Of a stretch of 64,000 nt of DNA, positions 26,688 through 44,400 are shown piece after piece. Numbering within the stretch: the first letter of the stretch is position 1; each line of letters opens with the position of its first letter. Made by a program: the position numbers and the translations under genes. The notes beneath the pieces are model-generated. The model did no database searches. It worked only from the letters and a program-made list of their open reading frames with translations, and had not been told where the DNA came from. Origin of the DNA: Cloeon dipterum (Eukaryota > Arthropoda > Insecta > Ephemeroptera > Baetidae); the NCBI RefSeq assembly GCF_949628265.1, contig NC_088790.1:24432545-24496544 (forward strand), in the 5' to 3' direction.

Positions 26688-29600
26688 TCAGGACATGGAC
26701 TGGACTTTTTTGGAAATCTTGGCTCTTGTCCAATGGTAGAGCCGATTAATCTTCCTCTCAGGCTGCTCTTGAAACCCACACACTGATGCAGCATCCAACT
26801 GCTCGTTGCTCATCTTCAAGACGTCGCAGATGCCAACTTTATGTCCCCTCCTGGCGATGTCGATTGGCGTGTCGAGCAGGTCGTTTCTCAGCTCTACCGA
26901 GGCGCCGTGCCTTTTCAGCAGGGCGGCGCAGTAGATGTGCAGATATTTATCAGGGCCCTCGTCGGCTAGGATGTGCAGGGGCGTGTTGCCGGCCAAACAG
27001 CGCGCGTTGACGTCGCTGCCCGCCCTGATCAGCATCTCGATGACGCTGAATTTGGGCGAGAACTTGCAGGCAAAGTGGAGGGGCGTCTTGCCGAAGAAGT
27101 CGCGGCTGCTCGCGTCCATCTCCCTCTCAACCAGCAGCAGGTTGAGCAGCTCCAGGATGTCCCTGAGTTATTTTAAGGTATAAAATGCGAGACATAAATT
27201 TAATTTCAATAAATACATTATTTTTTAAAATACCATTCATTAAGTCCAGCCCGTTATGGCTCGAATTATTAAGGCATTCTTAGGAGTGTCAAGGCAATGG
27301 GAGACATTTGAGCAGTTTGGGGATCTAATACTGGCTGCCCAATGGCAAAAGCAGGTGGTTAGTTTAGTGACTCGAAATGCTCAAATAGCTCAACGGGCTG
27401 GGAGGCGCACCGGCGCCGACTCGCCACTTGCTGGTTTTCGCACCTTTCCAGTGGCTTTAGGAACAAATAAAAAACCTTGGTGCGGGGCGAAAAGATGGCC
27501 TTATTGGGCCCAAGCTCCTCTGCGGCCACTCGGATCACTTGTTCCATGTTATCCGCTCAGCGGTGCTATTGGGACTTGGGACCCGGTGGAGTGCTGAGCA
27601 GAGGTTCAAAAAAAATATAGAAAGCTGTATCGGGCCACTCAAACCATTGGGAGACATTAAAAATCTTAGAAAAGCTAAATTTTTTGTGTCGCAGTGTTAA
27701 TAACTGGAAAAACTGACAATTTGTAATTAATTTTGAGAATTTCATTATATCTTTTATCGTTATATTATATTAATCATGGTTACATTAAAGTTTTAGGAAC
27801 AGCCTATATTGCTGGCTTGAATATTAAATTTATTTGGTGATATAGAAATGAATTTAAAAAAACGCAAATATATAATACATAAACCCAGAATTAAATATTT
27901 TTATTCAAAGAGAATTAGCACTTAAATTTTAAAATATAATAAACATAAAATCTGAAATTTTACTCTCTCAAATAGTCAGCAAAAATAAAAACATGTCAGT
28001 TAATTAGGCTAAATTGCATGGAAAGACTTTTTGGAAAAAACCCTTTGAAGTCAAAATTATTCATGACCAAATTTCCAAAGTGCCAACTTAAACAAAATAT
28101 TTTTACACGCTAAAAAACTAACCTTTTCTCGCTCTTGCAAGCTGCGGCCACGGCGATGTGCACCACGCTGCGGCCGTAGGTGGTCCGCTCGCCCAGGTCC
28201 TGCTGCATGCTGTCCGCCAGGAAGACCACCGCCTCTTTGTTGAGGAATTTGGCCGCCAGGTGCACCGGTTTATATCCGTACTTGTTGCTCGCGTGCAGAA
28301 GCTCCGGATTTGTTGACAGGATCGTCTTGAAGATGTGAGTGTGGCCTTTTTCCAACGCGATGCTGAGCAAATTCAGCTGCTCGTCCACGAAGAAAAGGTC
28401 GTGCGAGTTGTTCCGCAGGAAGAGCTCCGTGCAACTTTCGTGCCCATTCTCCACGGCTCTGCGGACCACTTCTCGGATGGGCATTTTGTCCGACGAACGC
28501 AGCACGCACGAGGTGTCCTCGCAGTCTTCCTGGTGCACCCTACGGATCGCCGCGGGAAGGGTCGTCGAGAGGAATTTGCAGTGTGAGTTTACTTGTTTCA
28601 TTGCTTGGCTCTCGCTCAGGAAGTAGGAAAAATATTCACCTGGAAATTTCAAATGTGAGGAAAAATTTCATTTTCGCATCATTGAAATAAATTATGATGT
28701 TGAGGTTTTCTGCGCGATTATTTTTTCCAGTATTTTGCCTGATATCGATTTGTTTTAATGCGATATCCCTTTAAGGTTAACTCATGTATTGCAGGTTTTT
28801 TTTATAATATTAGTTTATAAAAGGTTTTTACAACTTCTCTGAAAATATAAACACAAAAATAATTAAGAATTTCTTATAAAATTGTTTTCACTCAATTTTT
28901 TAGTCATGAAGTCTCAACAAAATTTTAATTTTTAAGTTAGAGCAGCTTATTCAATTAAATAAATTAAGAATTTAAGCTAAATTACTTTTTAAGTACTTTT
29001 TAGTTGAAATTGTGAAATATTTTACTATCAAATTTCCTATTTAAAAACCGTGTTGATGTTTATACGTCACTTAATGCAAAATTCCGCAATATTCTAAAAA
29101 ATTTGACTGCTTTAAAGTGGATAAAACAACAATTTAAAATGTTCTAAATCGATATCATTAAATCTTCTGAAACACCCGTGACTCTATAAATTAGAAAAAC
29201 ACCTACCCCATCCAACCTCTTGATAATTATCCTCTTTGATGAGCTCCAAGAAAACGGCTCCAAACTGCATCTCGTCTAATTTCCTGATGAACTCCCTTTT
29301 CCGCGCCTCCGAATTCTTAATGGTCGGCATTGCGCCATGGTCCAGCAGCGTTTTCAGAATCCGCCGCTCTCCGTCTTCCAGGATTCCTACCTTCCCCTCT
29401 TTTAGAGCGCCGGCCGACTCGAAAAAGGCACTGATAAAAGCCAGAAGTGGAGACACTTTGATGCTCGTCGGGTGCACACTCGCTCCGGCGTCCAACAGCA
29501 TTGAGACCATTTTCTCGTGGCGGAGGAGGACGGCGATGTGCAGGGGCGTGAAATGGTACATTCGGCCTAAAATGTTTCGGTTGTCGGCGATTTCAAGCGA

Positions 29601-32600
29601 GTAGATGTAATCTTGGTCGCCGTCGGCAGGCGACATGCAGATGTTCGAAAACTCAGAGGAGTCGATTGCGTTTTTGTTTGGCAACCTTTGCCAAAACGCG
29701 GAAAATGCGTTCGTTAAATTGTACTTTGCTATGTCGTGAAAAACAAAATATCTATCGTGCTCGGTGCAAAAGTCACATGCTTCTTGCAAGTATTTTCGCT
29801 TTCTTAGAAGGTAATTAGTAAATTTCAGCCTGTTTTGCGCGATGGACTCGATTAAAATCGGCACCTCGATGTGGACAAACGGCCTGTGGCTGATGCTGTG
29901 TCTGGTGGTGCGGAAAACTGATTTCTTTTCTGCTAGAAAATCGAACAGATCGTTCAAATTATGCTCCATAATGCGATTTTGTATTTCAATTCTGGCAGTT
30001 TGGTTATTTTCCAAAAAATTCAGAAGACTATTTTCCGTTTTCTTTGACTCGGTCTGAATCATGTCATTTAAATAGCACCACGTGCTTGGCGACATTTTTG
30101 CTAAAAGCAATTTAATTAAATACGCATGGAAAGGGTTCAAATCTCCTGGAATTTTTTTCAAACCGTTTGCAAGCCACTTTAGCAAATGCGAACTCTGCCA
30201 CTCGTGGTTGTGAAAGCCTAAAGCGATTTTGACCGAGTTAGCGATCAGGAATTCAGCCATTGTGCGGTGGAAAAACTCATTATTTCCGTCCAGCAGGCCG
30301 AGATTTTTAATCCTGGTTAATTCATGTGCGTCTTCGATCCGCGACTCCAGCTCTTGGATAGACTTGCAAAAAGAATCAGTTCCGGCGTATACCTGGCGCA
30401 GAGCGTAGAAAGTGAGCAAGTTGAAATTGTAACTTAGCCTCATTTCGGTTATGTCCGAGTTTGAAACGGTCCTGCAGTCGACGCCGACCTTTTCGAAGTA
30501 GTAAATGGCGAATTTCATGTCTAGGAACTTGTCTATCAGCTGGTACGGCTTAAAGAGTTTTGCCTCAGTGTTGTGGGCGCCCATTTCGACTAAAAGACGC
30601 AGGGTGAGCGGCACGCCAAGGGTGTCGGCGCCGAAGTTGCTCGACACCAGATCCAGTCTGGACATGTACTTTCTCGTGATTTCCTGAGAAATTTCTTCCC
30701 TTTTGGCCGCCAGTAACTGTTCAAGGTACAGTTTTTGCTGCTCTCTGGTGAACAAGCCGAGATCGTAGAGTTCGTAGTTGAGCAAAATGCCAGAATTTTC
30801 GATTTGACGCAGGGCCTCTTTTCTGGAGGTCAGCCAAACTTGCATCACCGCTATGTGCCTGACGAAATATTGTATCATCATTTGACAGTTTCTTCTCGAG
30901 TTCGGGCTGACCTCGTCGAAGCCGTCAAAAAGGAAAATCACCCGCCAATACGTGGCCATTGCGAAATCGAGCAGTTGCGCGTCAAACTCGTCCATTTCGT
31001 GGTAAGACTTGATTATTTCGATTTCCCTCCCGGCGATTTTGCTGCTGTCATCAAGCAGGCGGTTTAGTTTCCGCAAACTGATCATGAAGACGAAAATGTC
31101 TGTTTGGAAGTTTTTTATTTGGTGCCGGAAGTTTGAAAGGCAGGCGGTTTTCCCCATGCCAGGATTCGCTGCGATTATGCGCAGAATGGTCGTCCGAATG
31201 TTGAGCGACATGTCAAAAATTGTTCCCGCTTTGTTGACTGGCGGTGCGTGGATGTAGAAATTATTCGCCAGGGTAGAACTTTCCCAGGTTTGAGGCAGGA
31301 AGGTGCCTGTTTCCAGCTTCTGGCCCAGTTTGAATAAATTTACGTTGCTCAAGAAATTCGAGAATTCTGTCAACCTGACTTTGTATTTTTCCTTTTGCAG
31401 GCCGACGCAGAAGTTCTGGAGTTCGTTTTTGCTGTGCTCGCTTAAATCTCGAAAGTTAAAATCTTCCTTGTCTGTGTCTTCCTCGTCTAAACTATCTTCA
31501 GGGCTGGTTTGAATGAAAACGAATTTTAATCGTTTTTCAAACTTCTCCGTAAGCAAACTGGAGGCAGGAGTAACTTTTTCCTCGTTGCTCTTCACGACCA
31601 CAATCAAAAGCAGATAAGAGAGCAAGCAGCTATTTTTAAAATGCTCACTGTTCACAAACATCCTCTCGAATGTGGCTCTGTCCGGAAACACGATCCCCAT
31701 CGAATTCGGCCTTTTATTCATCCAAGTGTTGCGGATCAAAAATGCCAACAGTTTCTTATCAAAATCCGATCCGTTTTGCAAATTAATAATTTCCTTCAGT
31801 TTGCCCCACGATTTCTTCACGAGGCTCAAAGAGTTGAGATAAAGGTCGCTCAGTATTGGACAAGAAAATTGGGCCCCGAGCTCTTTCAACAGGGAAAAAG
31901 AAATACGCGAAATTGCCTCGATTTGATTCTCCAGAAAATCCTGATTTTTTTCTCTTTGGGCCAATCTTCTAATTTTCATCACGAACGCGTCTCTCTCCTC
32001 GGCACTTATTTCAGACGGGAATTTGATCATTTTGAAATGCGTGCCGTGAATGTGGAATCTCGGAATCGCCTCCTCGGCCAAGATAGAAACCCCAAGTTTA
32101 GCTGCAAAATTAACAAGCTGCAGGAAACTCATTTCCTTTTGCGTGAAGCAGTAATCGGGCCACATCCTGAAGCTGAAATCGGCGAAGGCGGTCGTGCGGG
32201 AGGCGTCGAACTTCCACAATCCCCCAGCCACCTTGCGCATCAGGCCCAGGGTGCTCGAGGTGTGGGCCCAGTTGAAGATTCTCAGAGACACCTCCTGCTT
32301 GCTCTCGAACAGCTTGATGAACACCGCGATCGGGTGCTTGTCCACGCCTTTGATGACCAGCGTCCGCTGCTTGCCCATTCCCTTCAGAGCCTTGTCCACG
32401 CAGATCAGCGTGCCGAAGTGAATCGCGATGGTGTTCACGATGTTCGGGCCCATCACGAAATTGGTCACGTCCAAATAGGTGACGGCCCTCTCCATCCCGA
32501 CATGCAGAGGATTCGTCTTCAGCATGGTGCGGATGACGTCGAAACTGCCCGGAGACTCGAACGTCTCGACGTGCGGATGCGTTTCGTCGAAATCCTCCTC

Positions 32601-34079
32601 GCGCCTCGGCACGAAAACGTCTCCGTCCAGTCTGAGGAATTTTACCGAGGCCGCGGTCACCTGGGCCAAGACGCCGCCCATCGAGTGGCCAGTTATGACC
32701 AGCTGGTAGCCACCCTGAACGGCCAAGGCACGCACGGCGTCGGCAAAAGTGCACGCCTCCTGCAGCTGGTAGCCCGTGTTGCCCTGAAAGTAAAATAATA
32801 ATTTATTCTTGTTAAAATTTAATTTATTTCACTGTTCAGTGGATCACCAATAAAAAAAACAACAACTGGAAATCCAGAATTGGATTTTGTAACCTTTCTA
32901 CGATTTAAAAATAAAATGAAAAATAATTGGAATTTATAATTAGAAGAAATTTGTCCTGGTGTCTGACAATTTGGTTGATTTTCACGCCACAAATTGGCCC
33001 ATTTTGACTGAAAATGCCATGTTAGCCATTATTTTGGCAAGGTGTCCATAATTTAATGCAAAAAGTACGTACAGCTACATTGACGCTATTTTATTTTATT
33101 TTCCCAAAACAATTTATATACTTTAATTAAATAATTTATCATGATTTTAAGAAGTACGTGATAAAAATGTCTTTAAATCGACTAAAATCAAGTCTAATTC
33201 GTTTGAAACTATGGGCATGGCCGTCTTTTAGATCAAAGAAAGGTAAAAAATTACATCGCCCGGAAAATTAAAAAAATCACTATTTAAAAAAATTAAATTA
33301 TTACTTTTTATTACAGAAGAGCGTTAAAATGTTCAAAACAGTTCTATAAATTCTTGAGGAATACGTTCTTCCAGCAAAAATATCGTACGGAAATACCTGG
33401 AAGAGGATGCGATAGTCGGAGATAAGATTGCCAAACGACGTTTTCACCGTGCCGCGGTGCACCAGAACGATTTGCTTCATATTGAAATTGAGCAGGGCCA
33501 CCCCGCGGTAGGCGTAGCGTCCGTTGCACGCTGCCAGCAACTTCCACTCGCTCAGGTTGTGTTCAGACAGGTACTCGATGATTTCTTCTTTCTTCGGGCG
33601 GTACACCAGACTGCTAAAATGGGCCAAGGTGAGGGTGCTCGGAAAGGATTCCACACTTTGTGAAGGAGAATAATTGCTGCTGCTGCTGCTGTTGCCTAGC
33701 TCCCAGTTTGAAAACTCGTAGTGTGGCTCAACTCTGCTTAATTTCTCGATCAGTCTGATCTGAAGAGGACATTTTTGAGTTTATTTTTATAAATAGAGCT
33801 GGTAATTTTTTTGGAGCAAAATGATTGGTTTTTTTTCTGTTGCTTTTGCTAGGAAAAATTATATAATTTTTTTGCTAACAAATAACAGATTAAATTAAAG
33901 AAGTATTTTGTTTCCAAAAGAATAAATTCATTAAATGCAAAAAAAACATTTCCCACTAAAAATGCACAGTTATTTGATGGTTCCAGGACGATTGGGAGCT
34001 CAGAAAAAATGTTATCGTCTGAAAATCAAAGCCCTAACTTGTAAATAAAATGGTTGCATACCTCTGTTTGGCCTTCCAT
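26688..34079 (-). CDS. NLR-like protein: class-3 lipase domain, NACHT NTPase, ankyrin repeats
   Basis: Five exons: 34062-34079, 33397-33759, 29207-32783 (3,577 nt), 28123-28639 and 26688-27162; all phases agree; 1,649 aa. Residues about 65-340 look like a lipase_3 alpha/beta-hydrolase: strand IVLVHRGTVKTS, then the nucleophile elbow VITGHSMGG (Ser161). Asp232 and His249 are possible triad partners but not certain. A helical linker follows. The NACHT region has Walker A ANPGMGKTA (Lys672), Walker B RVIFLFDGFDEVSP (about 741-754), sensor WLTSR, TLGVPLTLRLL and the winged-helix signature FFHRTMAEFLIA (about 964-975). Ankyrin repeats occur at about 1204-1310 and 1370-1620 (HFTPLHIAVLLRHEKMVSML; GKTPLHFACKF; GNTPLHILADEG). 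No signal peptide or membrane segment is seen, so it is probably cytosolic. By analogy with STAND proteins, ankyrins would sense, NACHT would oligomerise and the lipase would be the effector; this is inference. Known orthologues were not recognised. Confidence 0.88.
27236..27670. other. GC-richer insert of unknown nature in the last NACHT-gene intron
   Basis: Part of the 960-bp intron between the last two NACHT-gene exons is clearly GC-richer than its surroundings. It carries an open frame of 113 codons on the plus strand (27256-27597) and one of 62 codons on the minus strand (27359-27547). A 'attgggagacatt'-type block occurs near both ends (about 27295 and 27645), hinting at an inserted element. 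Neither frame resembles a family I know. Confidence 0.3.
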
Positions 34080-34540
34080 TCAAATTACATCATGTCACGC
34101 AACTCATGCTTTTCTTTAAATCCATATTGATTTGTGTTTCAAACTTTAAGAGCTGTTGTTTTCCACTGCAAGATGAGAACTGGTGTGTAACATCCTTTTT
34201 TGTTACTTGGCAAGCGCTTTTAACTGACCACAAAGGAGCTGCTTTTTCACTGGAGGAAACATGCTTCCGCGCTTTTATAATTTAAAAAGTGTTAATCTAA
34301 AAACAGCCAACACTTTATTTTATTTTACTTTCTATGTTTTCAAATATGTCAAATTCTCCTATTTTGAATATTTTAACTTCTACGACTTAAGCCTTCCCAT
34401 TTTTTAATTTAAAAATATTTTGTATTCCCGTTCCAAGATTATACTAATGGTTTGCTTGTAAAAACGATTTTAAATGATGAAGTAGACGGCATTAAATAAG
34501 TCAAAACCAACTAAAAATGAAGATTCATCCACGACGCAAA

Positions 34541-34746
34541 CTTCCGCCGTGCCCCATCGATGAGGGACGCCTGCGAAAAGAAAAGGCACGCGTCACGCAC
34601 TGCGTTGATGACCGACCGGTTGCATATACCTAAATCGTACGCTCGCACTAGCAGCGTGTACAGACTGCAGAGACGGTTCTTGTGCGGTTCAACGAGCAAA
34701 TTCTATTTTCTCGGTCCTCTATTTCTCGTCGAGGAATTACTTCAAT
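34541..34746 (-). pseudogene. Decayed duplicate of two cadherin exons and their intron
   Basis: About 205 bp nearly identical to 42187-42369, which holds the end of cadherin exon 14, the short intron and exon 13. Shared blocks include the acceptor CTTTTCGCAG|GCGTCCC, the donor region with the 'catata' run, and the text encoding YTLLVRAYDLG. The copy has several small insertions (near 34665, 34683 and 34711) and a 2-bp loss in the intron, which break the frame. The intron is retained, so the copy arose at DNA level. It lies between the 3' end of the cadherin gene and the 5' end of the NACHT gene, in the same orientation as its source. Confidence 0.85.
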
Positions 34747-41400: not shown

Positions 41401-44400
41401 TTTAATGTTAGGTTTAACAGTCATTTTTTAGATTTTTTACTCTATATCCACTTCAGTTTGATTCTAATATTGTTAATATTCTTTTAAATTGAATCATTAT
41501 TTTTCTCTTTACTTTTTGGCCATTAAACAAATGATCAAACATAAATAAGTTTATTTTCATTTAACTTGCTAGGTTATATAAGACGAACATTCAATAAAAT
41601 CATTAATGCTGGACCCTTTTGAAAATAAAAATACTCACTATAACTTCCTTCACGACAGTCTGGTTCGTCATCAGTCGCTGCTGAATCTCAGCGACGTCCA
41701 CCATCGCAGGCTCTCCTGAGTATGATATATCAGCCACCACGACACTCCTAAAAATGCCCTCATTATTAACACTCTAACCAAATTTTAAAAAAATTCGATA
41801 ATTGAACATTAATAAATAGAACTTTCCATATTTTTTTAGTCTCTTTCGTTGGCAAAATTCTCAAAAGCGTTTTTCCGACATTTTTTTCTTTCGAGCTAAA
41901 AGTCCAGTGGTTTTTCGCTAACTCTACTAGTTATATGCAAAAATTTAATTTAATCTCCACTCACTTATCAGTGTGGCTGGCGCCAGGGGCGAGGTCTGCC
42001 GCGGCCATCGTCTCCCCAGGCTTGAACGGACGGACCTCTTTGATGTGCACTTTGCCTCCGGTCAGCTGCGTGAGCAGCTTCTCGGTCGCCCTCAGGTCGG
42101 ACAGCACTCTGGTCGGCGAGTTTGGCACGATGAAGACGACCGAGCCCTTGGGCGACGCGTCCACGATGCTCGGGTGGACGCGCACCTCCGCCGTGCCCCA
42201 GCGATGAGGGACGCCTGCGAAAAGAATCGGCACGCGTCACGCACGGCATTGATGACCGACCGGTTGCATATATACCTAAATCGTACGCTCGCACTAGCAG
42301 CGTGTACAGAGACGGTTCTTGCGGCTTGAGCAAATTTTCTCGGTCCTCTCGGCGAGGAATTACTTTCAACTCACCTGAAAGATAATTATTTGAGTGACAG
42401 TACAATTTCGTAATTATAAAATCAAATTATATTTTACAAAAGAATAATAATAAATAAAATAAAAATTTCATGATCAGAACACGATGGGCGTCACCATTAA
42501 GGTCAGATCAGGTCAGAAGTTAAATCCTGGTGGCCGATCTTATGAAATCCCATAATACAAAGCCCATCAGGCGTGATTTTCGTGGACTCGCCCTTTTATT
42601 AAATTTCCTTTGAAATTGAGTCTAAAACCAACCAAATTTTGTTGAAATTCCCCAAATAGCTATTTTAACTCAAAATATTACACAAAATATAAGCCCTATG
42701 TAGAAAAAAATTTAAAATGTAACCATCCAGTATTTCCGAGTGTCAATAGTTCAAATCAGATTTAAAGTGGAATGATACTGAGCAACAAATGAAAATTATT
42801 TAAATTGTAGGATGCCTTAAACAATTGACTGATAAACAATTTGTTCAAAAATTTGCAATAATAAAAAAATGACCTTCCTACAATAAAAATTCAAATTTTG
42901 CCAATTTTCTCCAAAAATTTACAGTGCTTGAACATATTTTCTTGGCATATTCCGATTCGAGATCTGTCCAACGGTGTCTGCCACTTATTGGGGAAACTCT
43001 TGGTTTTGAAATAAAATCGGATTTCAAGTAAGGAGACAGCCATTACCATTTGAAAAGCACGCTAACTTTCCAGCCAATTTTCTCAAAAAATTACAGCGCT
43101 CCTTAGGTCAATTTAGGCTTTAACTGAGTCCTAAGGGACGAGTTTATGCAATGGCAACAAGCGTTTTCCAGGCTTTTCCAGTATCATTCCTCTTTAAATC
43201 AAAGAAATTCAAGGAAAAACAAATAAAACAATATTTAAATATATTAATTTCTCTAACCTGTGATTGGATCAAGGAAGAATTTATTGGCGAAATTGCCACT
43301 GATGATCTCATAGCGCACGGCATTGTTGGGCGACTCCGCGTCCGCGTCCGTGGCCTGAAATTTCCGTTTATTGAGCTTATTTTCACTGAAGAGAGCTCAG
43401 TTCGTTGCGAGACACACCTTCAAAAATACTCTGGTCGAGAAATTGTTGTTGTTCGGGGACAGGTACAGATCGTAATTCGAATACTCGAAGCTAGGCGAGT
43501 GGTCGTTCACGTCTATCAAGGTAATTATTAGGGGGACGGTCGATGCTCGACCGCCTCCACCCTCGTCCCTCGCCTCCACATAGAATTTGAACTCTGCAAA
43601 AATAAATTAGGCATATTAATTTAATAATTTAATTGACTAGAGTTTGTAAAAATAACATTATTATGTTTTTTATTAAATCTTTACATTAATTAAATTTTTA
43701 TTTTTATTAGAAATATATTTTATAAAGGAGAGATAAGCTGATTCCAAACGTTGAACATTTTATTTCTTTTCTAAGTGTCGTCAGTGAAATTTCCGCGAGT
43801 TTTTTTCTATTTGAAACGATAAATAAATACTCGACATCTATTTAAAAAATATGAATGAAGGCGTGGGAAAATTTACCTTTCCTGAGATTTCTAGATAAAT
43901 TCCTGATGAAATTATCAATTTACCGGTTTTGCAGGAAGAAATTTGTTTTCAAAGGCTTAAAAATCCGTGCTTCGTGCTTATTTGTATACAACATAAAAAA
44001 TCGATAATTTATTTTGCACGTCCCTAACAATATTAAAACTGGTTTGAATCAGATATCAATTTTTATTGTGATTAAATATAAAAAATTAGCTTGACTTTGA
44101 TAGCTGATCTTTTTAAGGTTAGAAAGCAAAACATTCTAAATTAAAGAGCTTTCTATTGGTCCAACAGATAAAAATTTGGCTGTTTGACCTTGTTGAAGTC
44201 ATTGTGATAAGGACTTATTTTCGCTCTCACTCAGCACTGACACTCGGAAGAGGAGCGTGTTAAAAATGAAATTCTTAGCGATTGCGTGCTTTTTCACGGT
44301 TCTGGCCGGGGTGGCGTTTTCCCTCACCCTCCCAGCACCAAAGAAGAAAATCGGTATTTATTTCTAGAATTCATTTTCGTATATATGCTCATTTGAATTG

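Follow-up and report, generated by a model that had tools for sequence, protein, structure and literature searches.

A predicted lipase-NACHT-ankyrin protein among the NACHT genes of an insect, Cloeon dipterum

Introduction

The lipase-NACHT-ankyrin layout is already known in fungi. As described for Metarhizium anisopliae (PMC4986451), SesB-like/NACHT/ANK NOD-like receptors (NLRs) carry a lipase-type α/β-hydrolase, a NACHT domain and ankyrin repeats in this order, and an effector role by NACHT oligomerization was proposed for them. Here, a gene predicted to encode the same order of domains is described in an insect. It lies in a window of 64,000 nucleotides from Cloeon dipterum (contig NC_088790.1, positions 24,432,545 to 24,496,544); "the window" refers to this whole stretch, in which unprefixed coordinates are given. 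Apart from its host, the window protein differs from the fungal receptors in its hydrolase, which is best matched by models of RLip and of class 3 lipases, and in its NACHT profile, which is nearest to those of animal NAIP and NLRP3.

In Neurospora, PLP-1 likewise places a lipid-cleaving N-terminal effector on a STAND (signal transduction ATPases with numerous domains) switch, with cell death as the working model, and killing requires both the patatin activity and the nucleotide-binding motif (PMC12881547). PLP-1 is built from patatin, NB-ARC and TPR, whereas the window protein has a class-3-like lipase, NACHT and ankyrin repeats. An enzyme module N-terminal to a STAND switch is also described in bacterial and fungal proteins with caspase or CHAT (PMC8195603, PMC12881547), but these are enzymes of the protease type from other kingdoms. 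The best-matching lipase model is that of Rickettsia RLip, which has the Ser hydrolase motif in common with the window protein and acts inside host cells; RLip is a secreted bacterial protein and, as described in PMC12507273, is without NACHT or ankyrin repeats.

A bona fide animal NLR has been defined as NACHT plus a C-terminal leucine-rich repeat (LRR) region (PMC7308585). The original prediction noted that the best-studied insects are generally held to lack classical NLRs, in agreement with the same source for Drosophila melanogaster; an NLR has been described in a crustacean, the shrimp (PMC12370184). The window protein has the NACHT core, sensor Arg and winged-helix motif in common with NAIP, NLRP3 and NOD2, the closest solved NACHTs. 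It differs from them in having an enzyme at the N-terminus and ankyrin repeats at the C-terminus: Pfam searches found ankyrin families and no LRR in the C-terminal part, and the N-terminal 358 residues matched hydrolase-type models only, with no CARD, PYD, BIR or Death domain. Other genes of the same genome encode NACHT followed by ankyrin repeats behind a cell-death-type N-terminal module, a 5' caspase-like block; the window gene encodes a lipase there, and no caspase-like block could be detected in it. No paper on an insect lipase-NACHT or caspase-NACHT gene was found in titles and abstract starts of open-licence PMC articles, which is no proof of absence.

Gene structure

The original prediction was of a 1,649-residue product encoded in one frame by five phase-consistent exons. 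This model was borne out, with exons running on the minus strand from 34079 to 26688 and four GT-AG introns of phases 0, 0, 1 and 2.

34062..34079, minus strand: exon 1, putatively encoding the start MEGQTE; ATG, donor GT and a phase-0 junction with exon 2
33397..33759, minus strand: exon 2, N-terminal part of the lipase; AG acceptor, GT donor, match to NF052630
29207..32783, minus strand: exon 3, remaining lipase, linker, NACHT, winged-helix region and first ankyrin repeat; open frame, Pfam matches
28123..28639, minus strand: exon 4, ankyrin block; Ank_2 at 55.2 bits, GT-AG
26688..27162, minus strand: exon 5, ankyrin block and stop codon; Ank_2 at 52.2 bits, AG acceptor

Exon 3 is contained in an open frame of 1,214 codons (29184-32828), the chance of which is about 10^-28 per start at its own base composition. 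The GC content of the coding sequence is 0.49/0.35/0.67 by codon position. As the NACHT core is encoded in exon 3 together with the GHSMGG elbow and one ankyrin repeat, the lipase-NACHT fusion is independent of splicing, and it is largely excluded that lipase and NACHT, which share one uninterrupted exon, belong to separate genes. The splice between exons 2 and 3 is supported by their matches to adjacent, colinear segments of the lipase model NF052630: the last 75 residues of exon 2 alone matched positions 44-98 (18.4 bits), and the exon 3 part alone matched positions 128-216 (21.2 bits). The weakest exon is exon 1, of 18 nt, supported by its ATG, donor site and phase and by no homology. On this model the gene is intact and would encode lipase, NACHT switch and ankyrin repeats as a single polypeptide.

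Lipase domain

The predicted lipase is split between exons 2 and 3.

33448-33459, minus strand: HRGT, residue 107, in exon 2; motif search
32673..32690, minus strand: nucleophile elbow GHSMGG, residue 159, with Ser161; aligned with GHSLGG of PDB class 3 lipases
32130..32783, minus strand: C-terminal part of the lipase domain (RLip/class-3-like), about residues 128-345; NF052630, Lipase_3

The best lipase model was NCBIfam NF052630 (RLip), with 43.8 bits and an E-value of 1.6e-11 over residues 76-253. Lipase_3 (PF01764) gave 22.4 bits with exon 3 alone and 25.1 bits with the spliced N-terminus, the Pfam cut-off being 22.0. A hand-scrambled control sequence gave no match. Judged from the match coordinates and assuming a gap-free match, Ser161 corresponds to about position 136 of the NF052630 profile; the serine required for RLip activity is number 138 (PMC12507273). 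Class 3 lipases of the PDB aligned weakly, from the RGT strand through the elbow (E 0.012).

Other searches with the lipase returned little. A PGAP1 match of 15.3 bits was under the cut-off of 24.3, none of the SesB-named models was matched, and PHROGs gave an esterase/lipase at E 0.09. The PADLOC anti-phage defence families (E up to 1) matched neither exon 3 nor the lipase. No relative was confirmed in prokaryote genomes and viral contigs by single-sequence scans, which reach close relatives only. Weak, partial similarities came from plasmids (seven Acinetobacter records, DUF2974/Mbeg1-like, 25-27% identical over one third of the query) and from one phage record. PDB matches to designed SAKe proteins were dismissed as chance, being stretches of 24-26 residues none of which passed alone.

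NACHT switch and ankyrin repeats

The lipase, STAND core and winged-helix motifs were at the positions given in the original prediction. Together with Pfam matches above cut-off to Lipase_3, NACHT and Ank in the same frame, they support the three-domain NLR-like architecture that it proposed.

31215..32129, minus strand: region linking lipase to NACHT; Pfam without a match at E up to 10
30708..31166, minus strand: NACHT domain (PF05729); E 1.1e-7, 32.3 bits against a cut-off of 26.7
31146..31169, minus strand: Walker A ANPGMGKT, residue 666; motif search, paralog alignment
30912..30935, minus strand: Walker B FLFDGFDE, residue 744; DGFDE invariant in 24/24 aligned rows
30822..30836, minus strand: sensor WLTSR, residue 777; Arg invariant in 24/24 aligned rows
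30240..30275, minus strand: winged-helix motif FFHRTMAEFLIA, residue 964; aligned with the FLHQTFAEFLAAQ-type motif of paralogs
29472..29552, minus strand: ankyrin repeat in exon 3 (PF00023); 27.6 bits against a cut-off of 21.1

The alignment, from which a tree was also built, comprised 24 NACHT rows, the window gene and 23 others of its own genome. Walker A, Walker B, the sensor Arg, the winged-helix motif and the Pfam score together characterize the domain as a STAND/NACHT NTPase. The solved chains nearest to the NACHT profile of the window gene and its paralogs were NAIP and NLRP3. The NACHT model also matched NLRs, and several of its best fold matches are, according to their entry titles, NLRPs of eggs or early embryos.

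NACHT genes of the genome

The genome (about 190 Mb, of which five contigs of 33-43 Mb, C1-C5, make up about 187 Mb) was searched for further NACHT domains. At least 102 matches were obtained, 101 of them above cut-off, with 46 on C4 and 34 on C2, and many clustered; the window gene is therefore no isolated oddity. All of these are minimum counts; the 102 do not include the NACHT at C4:29999001.

The sequences at and 5' of 22 NACHT matches were inspected, chosen with strong or related matches first and scattered ones thereafter, not at random. By pattern and by eye, 20 of 21 (L037-L043 and L046-L058, on C1-C5) showed a caspase-like module, a second module and then the start of the NACHT exon; the exception, L045, had no caspase-like module. 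A PCRG/QACRG-type Cys motif was present in 17 of the 20 caspase-like stretches, as was an SHG motif (16 by pattern, L041 by eye). Both first-module frames scanned passed the Peptidase_C14 cut-off of 21.4, with 43.5 and 22.5 bits. The second module is called a degenerate caspase by eye, since the sole frame scanned matched no Pfam family. At L061, the remaining stretch of the 22, the NACHT copy has decayed and a remnant is all that is left of the second module; an open frame immediately upstream has, by eye, a membrane-bound look.

One second-module exon was used as a marker in a genome query and gave 113 matches. It was found within 4.5 kb 5' of 97 of the 102 NACHT matches, on the same strand, at a median gap of 525 nt, compared with one of the 102 on the 3' side and none on the opposite strand. 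The marker was missing at five NACHT matches: the window gene, L045, L061, a match below threshold, and L048, where a diverged marker can be made out by eye. In an independent count, 19 of 49 Peptidase_C14 matches were followed on their own strand by a NACHT match at a distance of 1.1 to 3.0 kb, and none was located 3' of a NACHT match or on the other strand. The genome may thus hold about 100 caspase-NACHT-ankyrin genes, the caspase evidence being direct at the sampled loci and the 19 Peptidase_C14 matches and provided by the shared marker exon at the remaining loci.

The other 30 Peptidase_C14 matches include two tandem arrays, C5:27147932-27160033 and C4:1033374-1039141, which adjoin no NACHT match. 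Sixteen marker-exon matches were without a nearby NACHT, 11 of them in one cluster (C3:8346644-8631669) that perhaps consists of genes without NACHT or with NACHTs too diverged for detection. A further conserved domain, NYFAYC ... WG.VF..AW..SLE.DPD, was seen 5' of the caspase-like module at L058:252-767, L042:474-980 and L038:430-915; the one frame scanned matched nothing in Pfam.

The insect setting that had been suggested for the window was supported by five matches in the genome to the odorant-receptor family 7tm_6 (best E 8.7e-12), which we take to be insect-specific. One odorant-binding-protein match, with internal stops, was also present.

Position of the window gene among its paralogs

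The window gene is solitary on C5, away from the NACHT clusters. The query with its lipase found only itself in the genome at E up to 10, and the window gene was likewise the sole match of the RLip model (E up to 1). Lipase_3 had seven genomic matches (E up to 10). That of the window scored 25.9 bits, four scored lower, and two (L001 and L002, 31.7 and 27.5 bits) scored higher; the latter have GHSLGAG elbows and are, by eye, separate lipases. Only the window match is near a NACHT match. No Peptidase_C14 or marker-exon match was found at the window gene. It is the lone lipase version found, the other NACHT-ankyrin genes mostly having a different block at the N-terminus, caspase-like where sampled.

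A degenerate caspase-like module had been suspected by eye in the linker (residues 345-620), and this candidate was rejected after profile tests. When profiles were built from the individual second-module exons of the paralogs, both the window linker and its reverse scored 0.0 bits or were not matched at all. Of the 13 top-scoring rows of the joined profile, 12 were shuffled sequences and one was the reversed linker; the window linker did not appear among them. Profile-profile comparison gave an E-value of 0.85, against 0.19 for the reversed linker.

Discussion

With slightly more confidence than doubt, it is proposed that the window gene encodes an insect NLR-like receptor in which NACHT would oligomerize and concentrate a lipid-cleaving lipase effector. 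The receptor is probably cytosolic. Its ankyrin repeats would bind either a ligand or a host protein that the receptor guards, upon which NACHT would exchange nucleotide and oligomerize in an ATP-dependent manner. Clustering, or proximity, would turn on the N-terminal lipase through Ser161, and phospholipids of an intracellular membrane or of the plasma membrane could then be cut. The outcome might be death of the infected cell, damage to a pathogen-holding membrane, or release of a lipid signal. Sensor and killing enzyme may be built into one protein here, an arrangement that is little known from insects.

Several observations weigh against this proposal. The Lipase_3 cut-off was passed narrowly, over a stretch of 34 of 140 positions, and the score with the RLip model did not reach the family cut-off of 440 bits; by its profile scores the window lipase is related to RLip, not a member of that family. 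For the part of the lipase encoded by exon 3, folded alone, the mean pLDDT (predicted local distance difference test) was 32.6, and Ser161 alone of the predicted Ser-Asp-His triad was placed. A search of the PDB with the window NACHT alone (E up to 1) returned no chain, so that the match to NAIP and NLRP3 depends on a profile containing the paralogs. The window NACHT shares 19-23% identity with the other 23 in the alignment, and its position in the tree is not fixed owing to an end branch of 5.04. The linker contains no recognizable caspase-like module.

The lipase could be a catalytically dead or regulatory pseudo-enzyme, a scaffold or decoy with NACHT and the ankyrin repeats doing the work. 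The single placed triad residue, the low-confidence fold and the Lipase_3 matches, which cover 30 and 34 of 140 positions around the elbow, point that way, and the sampled paralogs also have, by eye, a second module without a recognized catalytic motif. This explanation is considered unlikely. Against it, neither GHSMGG nor the RGT strand is disrupted, and the RLip match spans 178 residues through the elbow. A non-immune STAND protein, acting for example in lipid homeostasis, development or a housekeeping assembly, would be in keeping with the solitary locus outside the NACHT clusters, the failure to find a second lipase-NACHT gene in the genome and the very divergent NACHT. Given the egg and early-embryo NLRPs among the best fold matches, a NACHT of this kind alone is no proof of immunity. 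However, fungal NLRs tied to non-self recognition likewise combine ankyrin repeats with an N-terminal hydrolase (PMC4986451), and NAIP and NLRP3 are the chains nearest to the NACHT profile. A non-immune function is considered improbable. A mis-joined model, with exon 2 from another gene and exon 3 beginning a protein with a partial hydrolase, is hardly credible: the splice sites are predictions and exon 1 is very short, but GT-AG sites and phases agree and exons 2 and 3 match colinear parts of one lipase model.

The divergence of the window NACHT also bears on its origin. As the domain is so divergent, a function shared with the other NACHT genes is not assured, and, with the very long branch in addition, replacement of a caspase by a lipase within the NACHT-ankyrin family is not claimed; a separate old lineage fits as well. 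A speculative and rather doubtful extension of the receptor proposal is a two-branch, all-in-one inflammasome-like repertoire, with about 100 sensors carrying a caspase-like block and at least one carrying a lipase captured, directly or indirectly, from the host-targeting lipase of an intracellular bacterium. If capture did occur, a microbial weapon would have been turned into an insect immune effector. The larger surprise may be the NACHT repertoire around the window gene. With at least 102 NACHT matches, most having a caspase-like-looking 5' block where sampled and one having a lipase, insect innate immunity would stand nearer to fungal and bacterial STAND systems. The window gene would make the lipase as a STAND effector directly testable in an animal.

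Other short open frames

A short open frame in intron 4 of the window gene (27359-27556; PLERC.NQ, LFEHFES) is also present at L040:673-855, and is likely a repeat since it recurs in this other stretch of the genome. Two short minus-strand frames of the window, 34511-34702 and 41968-42426, have SLYTLLVRAYDLGI in common and are probably repeat copies.

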